Below are positions 7,661 through 55,250 of a stretch of 64,000 nucleotides of DNA, piece after piece; within the stretch, counting starts at the first letter, position 1, and each line of letters starts with the position of its first letter. Origin of the DNA: Chloroflexus aurantiacus J-10-fl (GTDB lineage: Bacteria > Chloroflexota > Chloroflexia > Chloroflexales > Chloroflexaceae). The stretch lies in NCBI RefSeq assembly GCF_000018865.1, contig NC_010175.1, positions 992,001 to 1,056,000 of the forward strand. Direction: 5' to 3'. The notes below the pieces were generated by a model that saw only the letters and a list, made by a program, of their open reading frames with translations, was not told the DNA's origin and did not search any database. The position numbers and the translations under genes were made by a program.

Positions 7661-7932
7661 AGATGGGGGAAGAGGGGGCTGTACGGTGCAGATCGGGTGT
7701 GAGTGGAAGTGCGTAACTGAGGGCTGGCACCCTTTCTTGTCCTGCAAGGATAAGGAGGGAGAGGGTAGTGCGTAGAGGTGACGTGAGTATTTTTCTGATG
7801 CAGGGGGTTAGCCGGAATGTGGGTATGCGGACCTCTTCGGCGTCAGATGACGGCAACCACTGCCATTTCGGACAACCCACAATGACGTTATGCTACAATG
7901 CAGCAAGTGTGCAGGTAGATAGGGAATGACAC

Positions 7933-49915: not shown

Positions 49916-50407
49916 ATGAGCGAAGCGCACAACGAATTGACCCATCTCGACGCTGCCGGCCATGCTCGCATGGTAGATGTTGGTGATAAGGCCGTCACTG
50001 CTCGTGAAGCGGTGGCCCGTGGCCGGGTGGTGATGCAACCGGAAACACTTGCCCTGATCATGGATGGCAAACTTCCCAAGGGCGATGTGCTGGCCGTAGC
50101 GCGCGTAGCCGGCATTATGGCTGCGAAACGTACTGCCGAATTGATACCACTGTGCCACCTGCTCAATCTGAGTCACGCCAGCGTGCAATTTACCCCTGAT
50201 CCGGCAAGCAATGCCCTGGAAATTGAAGCAACCGTGCGCTGCCAGGGCCAGACCGGGGTCGAAATGGAAGCACTGACCGCTGTCAGTATCGCCGCTTTGA
50301 CGATTTACGATATGTGCAAAGCGGTCGATAAGACTATGCAGATCGACCAGATTCGCCTCATCGCCAAGCGCGGGGGACGGAGTGGCGACTGGCAGCGTCC
50401 ACGGTAA
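49916..50407 (+). CDS. moaC: Cyclic pyranopterin monophosphate synthase
   Basis: 163 residues. MoaC motifs: [18 protein letters not shown], the active-site [13 protein letters not shown] and [24 protein letters not shown]. It turns the MoaA product into cyclic pyranopterin for molybdenum cofactor. AAAAAGGGG precedes the ATG. It is divergent from mraZ, and no other moa gene is near. A repeat array starts within about 30 bp of the stop. Confidence 0.97.
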
Positions 50408-50429: not shown

Positions 50430-51005
50430 CATCCGCGTATATCCGTGTTGATCATCGATGGAACGCGGATGGACGCGGATCGGGCGGATGGACGCGGATT
50501 GGTGGTAAGGTCATTCGCGGGTATCTGCGGGGGGGCATCGGCGGAACGCGGATGGACGCAGATAGGCGGTAAGGTCATTCGCGGGTATCTGCGGGGGGCA
50601 TCGGCGGAACGCGGATGGACGCGGATTGGGCGGATGGACGCAGATAGGCGGTAAGGTCATTCGCGGGTATCTGCGGGGGGCATCGGCGGAACGCGGATGG
50701 ACGCGGATTGGTGGTAAGGTCATTCGCGGGTATCTGCGGGGGGGCATCGTCGGAACGCGGATGGACGCGGATAGGCGGTAAGGTCATTCGCGGGTATCTG
50801 CGGGGGGGTATCGTCGGAACGCGGATGGACGCGGATTGGGCGGATGGACGCGGATAGGCGGTAAGGTAATTCGCGGGTATCTGCGGGGGGGCATTGTCAG
50901 AACGCGGATGGACGCGGATTAGGCGGATGAACGCGGATAGGCGGTAAGGTAATTCGCGGGTATCTGCGGGGGTGGGCATCGGGGGAACGCGGATGGACGC
51001 GGATA
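50430..51005 (+). repeat. CGCGGATGGACGC tandem array, about seven higher-order units
   Basis: The marker GGTAAGGT recurs at 50506, 50570, 50652, 50715, 50779, 50862 and 50945 (spacings 64, 82, 63, 64, 83, 83). Units differ by one extra 19-bp block of the GGCGGATGGACGCGGATT type. Each unit also has CATTCGCGGGTATCTGCGGG. The same core in reverse forms the array at 20230-20640. No gene lies in 50408-51334. Confidence 0.92.
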
Positions 51006-51268: not shown

Positions 51269-51297
51269 TTGACATTGAACAAATGTTCTGATACAAT
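51269..51297 (+). promoter_or_regulatory. Promoter with LexA/DinR-type box
   Basis: TTGACA (51269-51274), a 17-bp spacer and TACAAT (51292-51297). Between them, GAACAAATGTTC (51277-51288) is a perfect palindrome fitting the Bacillus-type SOS box GAAC-RNRY-GTTC. A bound LexA would cover the promoter. Confidence 0.72.
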
Positions 51298-51334
51298 ACG
51301 GTTCAGCAAAGAGATTACAAGCCGGAGATCAGGT

Positions 51335-51640
51335 ATGCTAAGCTGGAGAATGTTGCGGGAATGGCCCCGCCACCCATCATCCGTTGTCTGGCGACATCCA
51401 CCACGAAGTGACCGGATTACGCTACTCGCGATGCGGTTTGGTTTCCTCCCGGCTACGTTTCAGTACCAAAACAGTATTCACCGGGTTGTCAATGTCCTGC
51501 ACATTCGCGATACCTGTGATCGTCATGGTGAACGGCGTTACTACCGGGTTGCCTGCGCCGATGGTGTTGAACGAACCCTCATTCACGATTTGCGTTCCGG
51601 GAACTGGTACCTCCAGCGCGAGTGGTTTCGTCAGATATGA
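51335..51640 (+). CDS. Small protein with DUF6504-like C-terminal half, putatively SOS-regulated
   Basis: 101 residues from an ATG preceded by CCGGAGATC. The second half (HRVVNVLHIRD ... RYYRVACADGVERTLIHDL ... NWYLQREW) resembles the small beta domain (DUF6504 type) known alone or at the C terminus of Y-family polymerase/ImuB-like proteins; this is judged by eye. The first 45 residues, Arg/Trp-rich, are not recognised. The promoter 40-65 bp upstream contains a LexA-like box, which supports a DNA-damage role. There is no lexA, recA or polymerase gene in the window. Confidence 0.6.
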   Translation: MLSWRMLREWPRHPSSVVWRHPPRSDRITLLAMRFGFLPATFQYQNSIHRVVNVLHIRDTCDRHGERRYYRVACADGVERTLIHDLRSGNWYLQREWFRQI

Positions 51641-52026: not shown

Positions 52027-52329
52027 ATGGCACACGCATCACGTTCTCACACGCCAACACCCGTAACCGAACCTGCACCTGTCCTGTCCACGCCTGAAAC
52101 CGCCTTTCGCCGCCAACCACCATTTCTGATGTGGTACGACGATAACCCAAAAACCCCGGTAGCGCGCAAGATTACCGAAGCGATTGAAGCCTACAAAGCC
52201 CGCTTTCCCGGTGTGCAACCGACTCTGGTGCTGGTCAACGAAGCTGAAGTAACGACTATCGAAGGAATTACTGTGCGGGCAATGCCAACCGTAAGCCGCA
52301 ATACGTACTGGGTGGGGCAGATAGTCTAG
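52027..52329 (+). CDS. Small conserved hypothetical protein, 3' end joined to a MITE
   Basis: 100 residues; AAGGAGA lies 10 nt before the ATG. A polar, Pro/Thr-rich N terminus is followed by a compact part (FLMWYDDNPKTPVARKITEAIE ... TLVLVNEAEVT) with alternating helix and strand. It looks like a family of small uncharacterised proteins with a WYDDNPK motif. The TAG stop is formed by the first bases of the MITE at 52326, so the original C terminus may have been different. Function unknown. Confidence 0.6.
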   Translation: MAHASRSHTPTPVTEPAPVLSTPETAFRRQPPFLMWYDDNPKTPVARKITEAIEAYKARFPGVQPTLVLVNEAEVTTIEGITVRAMPTVSRNTYWVGQIV

Positions 52330-53634: not shown

Positions 53635-54070
53635 CTGCGTTAGGCCGGACTGCAAGCGTCCCCCGTGGCGCAGGCTTCCAGCCTGCGTGCAGGCATCCTC
53701 TCCACCGCCGTCAGGTGTTGGCCGTAACTGCTGGTGCGCAGGCACGAACCTGGGGCAACAACACATCTACGCGCAGGGATCGCATGCATGCCTGACCGAT
53801 GCGATGATCGGCACGATCCCATCCAGCACCCCCGTGATCAGGATGGGGAACGGTATGCCACGCGCCGGATTGTGAGCACGGCTTTTGCGGCAGCATGGCT
53901 GCCGCACTCCAAACCGCGCGACACGCGTATGACAAGCGGGTACGGCAATTCATTCAGCACGTGCCGGCACGACTGGAGCGGCGCACTGCCACTGGACAGT
54001 CACCCAAAACAGCACCTGTGGCGCTCATACCCGCTAATACGCACGTGGTTGACACCAGTTGTGGGTAATG
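53635..54070 (+). repeat. Second copy of the dispersed repeat of about 470 bp
   Basis: From CGTTAGGCCGG onward it matches 16690-17165, including GTGGCGCAGGCTTCCAGCCT, GATCAGGATGGGGAACGGTA, the 19-bp palindrome (53887-53905) and GGTTGACACCAGTT at its end. It runs directly into the 348-bp tandem array. Confidence 0.85.
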
Positions 54071-55115
54071 CATAGCCAGCGGGGGGAGGCCGGGAGGGGG
54101 GCCGTTGCAAACGGTGAGTGAGCCTCTGGCTCGTGCTCGCAGAGGACACTGGCTGTCAGGCGACGTATGGGTAATGGAAAAGTGACCGATGCGGAATCTG
54201 TTGTACCCCGCTCTTAATCGTGAGCACGGCTTTTGCGGCAGCATGGCTGCCGCACTCCAAATCTTGCGCCACGCACATGATGGGCGAGTAAGACAACCCA
54301 TCCAGCACGTGATAACACTGCTGGAGCAGCGCACTGCCACCGGGCAGTCGCCCAAAACAGCACCCATGGCAATCATAACCGCTGATAAGCGCGTGGTTGA
54401 CACCAGTTACAGGTAATGCATAGCCAGCGGGGGAAGGCCGGGAGGGGGGCCGTTGCAAACGGTGAGTGAGCCTCCGGCTCGTGCTCTCAGGGGATACTGG
54501 CTGTCAGGCGACGTATGGGTAATGAAAAAGTGACCGATGCGGAATCCGCTGTACCCCGCACTTAATCATGAGCACGGCTGGCGCGGCAGCATGGCTGCCG
54601 CACTCCAAATCTTGCGCCACGCACATGATGGGCGAGTAAGACAACCCATCCAGCACGTGATAACACTGCTGGAGCAGCGCACTGCCACCGGGCAGTCGCC
54701 CAAAACAGCACCCATGGCAATCATAACCGCTGATAAGCGCGTGGTTGACACCAGTTACAGGTAATGCATAGCCAGCGGGGGGAGGCCGGGAGGGGGGCCG
54801 TTGCAAACGGTGAGTGAGCCTCCGGCTCGTGCTCTCAGGGGATACTGGCTGTCAGGCGACGTATGGGTAATGAAAAAGTGACCGATGCGGAATCCGCTGT
54901 ACCCCGCACTTAATCATGAGCACGGCTGGCGCGGCAGCATGGCTGCCGCACTCCACACCGTGCGCCACGCGCATAACGAGCGGGTACGGCAATCCATCCA
55001 GCACGTGCTGGCACGGCTGGAGCGGTGCCCTGCCACCGGGCCAGTCGCCCACAACAGCACCTATGGCGCTCAGACCCGCTGATACGCATGTGGTTGACAC
55101 CAGTTGTGGGTAATG
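54071..55115 (+). repeat. 348-bp tandem repeat, three full copies
   Basis: The unit boundary CATAGCCAGC occurs at 54071, 54419 and 54767, and the array closes at 55116 (periods 348, 348, 349). Copies 1 and 2 are almost identical; copy 3 diverges in its second half toward the 53.9-kb sequence. Each has one 19-bp palindrome (54235, 54583, 54931). ORFs in it are artefacts. No gene was found up to 55250. Confidence 0.93.
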
Positions 55116-55250
55116 CATAGGAATCGTTAGGGAGACAGATACTGCCAAATCTTAATAGCTGGTGATCGTTAGTTCACGTGTCATCAACGCTATTCCACCA
55201 GACTCAGGCACCACAAAGCCACCACGTTATGAGATAGATCCCATCAACAC

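Follow-up and report, generated by a model that had tools for sequence, protein, structure and literature searches.

A free-standing ImuB-C-type gene with a LexA-box promoter in Chloroflexus aurantiacus, in a genome with no recognised Y-family or ImuB partner

The 64,000-nucleotide stretch of the Chloroflexus aurantiacus J-10-fl genome analysed here (the window) carries a 101-codon gene that is probably a member of the LexA (SOS) regulon and whose product is a divergent, free-standing ImuB-C domain; the usual polymerase partners were not found in the genome. Free-standing, SOS-controlled ImuB-C proteins are already known from Geobacter and Deinococcus; what appears to be new, as far as the literature searched extends, is a subfamily of orphans that have an SOS-type promoter and conserved residues of their own and for which no polymerase partner was found. 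ImuB-C is normally a part of, or a partner to, error-prone polymerases, and a paper of 2019 describes it as the mutasome's least characterised module (PMC6511836). Where a lineage keeps ImuB-C alone behind an SOS-like promoter and the polymerases are missing, what the domain does can be told apart from what the polymerase does, and such hosts bear on the action of ImuB-C alone and on damage tolerance without translesion polymerases.

The gene, its promoter and its nearest neighbours lie in the window as follows:
49916..50407, + strand, moaC-like gene, the upstream neighbour, in a cluster also found at other orphan loci (see below)
50457..51004, + strand, tandem repeats, about 64-83 nt per unit, separating moaC from the gene
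51269..51274, + strand, -35 hexamer TTGACA, read from the sequence; TTGAC is at the same place in the 25 perfect-box loci
51277..51288, + strand, LexA-type box GAACAAATGTTC inside the promoter spacer, read from the sequence and kept in 25 of 30 loci
51292..51297, + strand, -10 hexamer TACAAT, separated from the -35 by a 17-nt spacer, read from the sequence
51324..51327, + strand, GGAG, the likely ribosome site, 7 nt ahead of the ATG
51335..51640, + strand, orphan ImuB-C/DUF6504-type gene of 101 codons, with its ATG at 51335 and a TGA ending at 51640
52027..52329, + strand, small ORF of 100 aa, by eye like a small ORF downstream of the gene in six other genomes

The preliminary description of this DNA had placed a GAAC-N4-GTTC box in the spacer of a TTGACA/17 nt/TACAAT promoter, followed by a ribosome site and a 101-codon gene, and reading of the sequence confirms each of these elements. 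The consensus for the GAAC-N4-GTTC SOS box has an RNRY centre, and the centre here and in the relatives (mostly A, T or A, A, T) fits it. By itself such a box is weak evidence, since its counts are near expectation or control: the window has one GAACN4GTTC against 0.76 expected, and the host genome, a single contig of 5,258,541 bases, has 51 against 38 for the reversed control pattern. Fifty of those 51 are listed, the window's among them, with one unlisted; when the 49 others were examined a loose -35/box/-10 pattern was seen at just one, which lies inside a 350-codon frame and has a poor -35, TTGCCC.

The description had made its reading depend on the existence of homologues and on conservation of the box in related genomes, and both are found. 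A blast-type search detects homologues of the window protein in 34 of the 61 genomes of the order, its own included. A perfect GAACN4GTTC lies between a TTGAC-type -35 and a TA-type -10 at 25 of 30 homologous loci, the window included (the count covers these 30 loci and leaves out G043, G047, G053, G055 and a second match in G023, which have no locus). Loci L023 and L030 have a one-mismatch box at the same place in the promoter; L015 and L019, whose upstream sequence is complete, lack a box even when one mismatch is allowed, and the upstream sequence of L007 is only 103 nt long. The remainder of the 30 loci, 83,997 nt, contains five boxes. A LexA-type box inside the promoter is thus kept in relatives of different genera, perfect in 25 of 30 loci and with one mismatch in two more.

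The host has one Peptidase_S24 match, and the gene that gives it also gives the LexA DNA-binding match. The promoter of this lexA gene is TTGACA-AAACAAGTGTTC-GTTAGC-TATAAT; its spacer holds a box with one mismatch, and a second such box lies a short way upstream. Among the lexA upstream regions of relatives, 40 of 50 have an imperfect box between -35 and -10 (13 with one mismatch, 27 with two and none perfect), a pattern that occurs in 4 of 5000 random 260-nt pieces of own-genome stretches; the other 10 of the 50 lexA regions of the order show no such box-bearing promoter. Upstream of the host recA there is no perfect box, only two-mismatch sites. Of the genes that the description proposed to check for the box, lexA has an imperfect promoter site, and the two-mismatch sites of recA speak against the reading. 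With the lexA promoters of host and relatives imperfect and that of the small gene perfect, the lexA site appears weakened relative to the small gene's.

In E. coli, strong LexA sites mark tightly repressed genes, and Dehalococcoides, a green non-sulphur relative, reportedly uses the Gram-positive-type LexA box. That the box of the window is a chance palindrome in a constitutive promoter would agree with about one box expected per 64 kb and with the genomic count of 51 against 38 for the reversed pattern; it is rejected as extremely improbable, given the sandwich at 25 of 30 loci and at 1 of 49 other genomic boxes, its one-mismatch versions at two more loci, and the related site in 40 of 50 lexA promoters. 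The position of the box within the promoter, as judged from these sequences, is not due to chance.

We note several other perfect boxes. Two similar membrane-type proteins of about 170 aa have one upstream (G000:C1:793564, L207, and G000:C1:2583611, L222); their FG-GAP matches are below cut-off, and they are possible further SOS genes. At G000:C1:2526084 (L221) a perfect box lies immediately behind a TTGACA-TATAAT promoter, ahead of a protein kinase-domain gene (Pkinase E 2.1e-25), and at L325 (G350:C117) one is found 13 nt before a gene that by eye is FtsK-like, about 1.45 kb upstream of an orphan-type ImuB-C.

Alone, the window protein matches nothing in Pfam or NCBIfam, even with the limit set at E 10, and in a PF20114 search of its genome the sole match is a frame with three stops elsewhere (E 0.12). 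It is tied by blast-type matches, E 2.8e-42 to 0.008, to an orthologue group that does show homology to the DUF6504 profile (PF20114), with 12 of 23 family members matching at a best E of 3.8e-7; the likeness to DUF6504 proposed earlier thus stands for the family and not for the window protein on its own. The proposed relation to the C-terminus of ImuB is also supported, as a profile of the family finds an ImuB C-terminus and split-ImuB cassettes in the phylum. Of 400 genomes of the phylum at least 64 contain a match to this profile, a lower bound with at most 12 candidates scored per genome, and 19 of the matched places were inspected. The domain is fused behind a Y-family domain in G261 (PF00817 E 1.8e-13), and G351 resembles this type of ImuB fusion by eye. 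At nine loci the domain gene lies directly behind a PF00817-matching protein, two of the nine being under cut-off. In G051, of the same order, the gene order is a RecA-like ImuA candidate (PF00154 E 8.2e-26), an ImuB candidate (IMS_C E 7.5e-10), the domain (PF20114 E 1.5e-6, 28.8 bits against a cut-off of 24.2; family profile E 2.8e-6) and DnaE2. Together these matches indicate that the window protein is a divergent free-standing ImuB-C domain. The ImuB-C domain was named in 2013 (PMC3765255). We infer that it is the same as DUF6504; the identity is left at that strength because the name DUF6504 occurs in no paper of the literature searched. No paper in that literature combines ImuB-C and Chloroflexus, and "chloroflexi" does not appear in the main texts of PMC3765255, PMC6511836 and PMC12926913.

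Three close pairs have dN/dS ratios of 0.15, 0.19 and 0.19 (pairs further apart are saturated), values that reject a non-coding ORF and indicate that selection keeps the orphan protein. Four residues, P39, F42, C74 and W91, are invariant in the alignment of 23 orphan sequences; the cysteine at C74 is present also in the linked G084 and is missing from G350. An AlphaFold2 model from a three-sequence alignment is all-beta, with seven strands, no helix and a mean pLDDT of 77; residues 31-90 have a pLDDT of 84-94 per ten-residue block, and residues 1-21 are of low confidence. With this model from a shallow alignment Foldseek gave no PDB match at E 0.001, VIA-align gave a best Z of 5.0 with unrelated proteins, and a sequence search of the PDB with the family profile gave nothing at E 1. 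The lack of a convincing PDB match agrees with the statement in PMC12926913 that ImuB-C is a new fold without a closely related fold in the PDB. A DNA pattern scan found at least 119 stretches in genome contigs, and among the matches listed (80) two are ImuB-C-like, L129 and L130; a search of viral contigs gave 34 pattern matches, none of which was confirmed.

The orphans differ from those ImuB-C domains that we group here as polymerase-linked, which have a Y-family or DnaE2 neighbour or fusion and a WW motif; the gene of the window has neither. In a tree of 40 rows, with groups fixed by hand beforehand and a short domain, 25 orphans lie on one side of a branch with support 100/99, and when the tree was repeated with 36 rows (11 of them Pfam-supported linked rows) the branch between orphan and linked sequences had support 100/100. 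The 15 linked rows and two outside orphans were chosen by hand from the phylum profile matches plus L129; this comparison leaves out the other matches, G357 included, and a third group (L324, L345 and L346). The WW motif is present in 14 of the 15 hand-picked linked rows, of which G084 and L129 are only putatively linked, versus none of 23 orphans. The motif is not strict: among three further cassette copies the one of G035 has WL, and so does the outside orphan G350. The genomes G019, G026 and G035 each carry, besides an orphan, a second copy of the linked type at another place, next to ImuB and DnaE2 matches. With both kinds present in these three the orphan is not simply a relocated cassette copy, and the idea that it is one is rejected by this coexistence and by the two-sided trees. 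The orphans thus appear as a separate ImuB-C subfamily.

We note that the third group, L345 (G009:C178), L346 (G030:C851) and L324 (G071:C399), consists of short DUF6504-like proteins of neither the orphan nor the linked type. At L318 (G126:C284), 7717-7902, an ImuB-C is apparently fused in front of a DnaE2-like polymerase, the DnaE2 part being recognised by eye, and this fusion would support direct contact between the two.

No match to PF00817 (Y family) and none to the G051 ImuB was found in the host genome, in which one DnaE was found, and the same is true of all eight genomes of the genus: no PF00817 match, no G051-ImuB match and one DnaE each. ImuB and DnaE2 in the same genome, the mark of an ImuA-ImuB-DnaE2 mutasome, are accordingly not found in the host. 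These searches covered the Y family, ImuB-like proteins and DnaE. Among the 34 genomes with the orphan gene a Y-family match is absent from 27, and neither a Y-family nor an ImuB-like match is present in 26; 24 have no Y-family protein, ImuB-like protein or recognisable DnaE2, the status of DnaE2 being assigned by hand from frame lengths and contigs. In 21 of those 24 genomes, all with a completeness of 90% or more, a single DnaE was found. A Y-family or ImuB-like protein is present in 8 of 34 genomes with the gene versus 3 of 27 without it, which is no association (Fisher p 0.32). The preliminary description, which connected the DUF6504-like domain with Y-family polymerases and ImuB, saw in the protein a possible tolerance accessory factor; for this genome an accessory role beside ImuB or a Y-family polymerase is rejected, because the PF00817 and G051-ImuB searches found no such protein.

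Other small or free-standing proteins offer partial parallels. In Geobacter a free-standing SOS-controlled ImuB-C is reported in a lexA-imuB-C-polY operon (PMC6511836), and Deinococcus is described as having an SOS-controlled lexA-imuY-imuB-C-dnaE2 operon (PMC8072749). The orphan resembles the free-standing ImuB-C of these and earlier accounts (PMC3765255, PMC6511836, PMC8072749) in its superfamily, as judged by profile, its all-beta structure, its invariant late tryptophan and its SOS control, the last predicted for the orphan from its sequence. Whereas those of Geobacter and Deinococcus are in operons with lexA and a polymerase, the orphan lies next to moaC under a promoter of its own, in a genome without a Y-family match and with one DnaE, and has no WW motif. 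The actinobacterial DnaE2-[ImuB-C] modules of PMC12926913 likewise have ImuB-C without a Y-family partner; they include DnaE2, however, and in the host genome only one DnaE was found. The fused ImuB of the phylum (G261) contains a homologous domain, found by the family profile, and differs from the orphan, which has no polymerase-like part, no partner genes and different conserved residues. UmuD and YolD/YqjX, small SOS partners of Y-family polymerases, are likewise small, SOS-linked and built on beta cores; these are SH3-type barrels, unlike ImuB-C as it is described in PMC12926913.

The gene at 49916..50407 we take, from its sequence, to be moaC. The moaC cluster is upstream of the orphan in 10 of the 18 other orphan loci examined, all in one family (the window was assigned by eye), and beyond moaC, on the opposite strand, are what are presumably cell-wall and division genes; in more distant families the neighbours of the orphan gene differ. 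The earlier statement that the gene sits alone between repeats is right for the window, with its repeats at 50457-51004, and does not extend to four congeners, in which the gene directly follows moaC and the -35 hexamer contains the moaC stop codon. The small ORF at 52027-52329 has an nSTAND6 match at E 0.027, below cut-off, and at 53873-55120 the window has 3.6 tandem copies of a 348-nt unit, with 91% matches. Two of the eight genus genomes, one of them 82% complete, have no orphan match. A broken-looking orphan copy lies behind an intact TTGACA/box/TATAAT promoter at L326 (G037:C2:581864-582031); from this copy and the two genomes without a match it appears that the gene is dispensable for some hosts.

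For the function of the gene we propose that it would be repressed by LexA and induced by DNA damage. LexA bound between the -35 and the -10 would block RNA polymerase, and RecA-stimulated self-cleavage of LexA after damage would lift the repression. The product, predicted to be a small beta protein, would act at stalled forks by binding the replicative DnaE, RecA or both; tolerance would be promoted, or the fork restrained, with no translesion polymerase taking part. In published models linked ImuB-C contacts a RecA-like protein and a DnaE, the latter at its PHP domain (PMC12926913). The single DnaE and/or RecA would be the likeliest partners, as they are the remaining candidates here for such contacts; this choice of partner is a tentative guess by analogy, and the contacts of the linked group may not apply to the orphan since its WW motif is missing. 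A further step, possible and on balance doubtful, is that this ImuB-C subfamily left the mutasome and became an SOS-induced regulator that binds the PHP domain of DnaE, or bridges DnaE to RecA, and so changes the behaviour of the fork at lesions. If true, such bacteria would tolerate damage although they have no dedicated translesion polymerase.

The chief rival to this proposal is an idea of 2013, that ImuB-C is a damage sensor which binds damaged DNA and recruits general repair enzymes without contacting a polymerase. DNA binding by ImuB-C is proposed in PMC3765255, where solo ImuB-C is listed with Ku/ligase, SplB-like photolyase or SRAP genes, and the host genome, in which no family-Y or DnaE2 translesion polymerase was found, is the kind of setting that would suit a sensor. 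The modelling of PMC12926913 describes contacts of ImuB-C with DnaE2 and ImuA, however, a frame in the phylum (G126, by eye) joins ImuB-C to a DnaE2-like polymerase, and no repair-like gene was seen by eye among the clusters common to at least three neighbourhoods, so that we regard a sensor as unlikely here. An ordinary mutasome part that serves an unrecognised error-prone polymerase, of family B or A for example, is a less probable reading still: free-standing ImuB-C is described beside DinB, DnaE2 or UmuC (PMC3765255, PMC6511836, PMC12926913), and our polymerase searches covered the Y family, ImuB-like proteins and DnaE, but Y-family matches are missing in 27 of 34 gene-bearing genomes, Y-family and ImuB-like matches are both missing in 26, and the gene is not associated with either (8 of 34 vs 3 of 27, Fisher p 0.32). 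A functionless leftover of a lost mutasome, kept for a time under its SOS promoter, would account for the two genus genomes without a match and for the broken-looking G037 copy with its intact promoter; the dN/dS of 0.15-0.19 in three close pairs, the four residues invariant in 23 sequences, the conserved promoter and the three genomes with an orphan plus a separate cassette copy all argue against it and make it very improbable.
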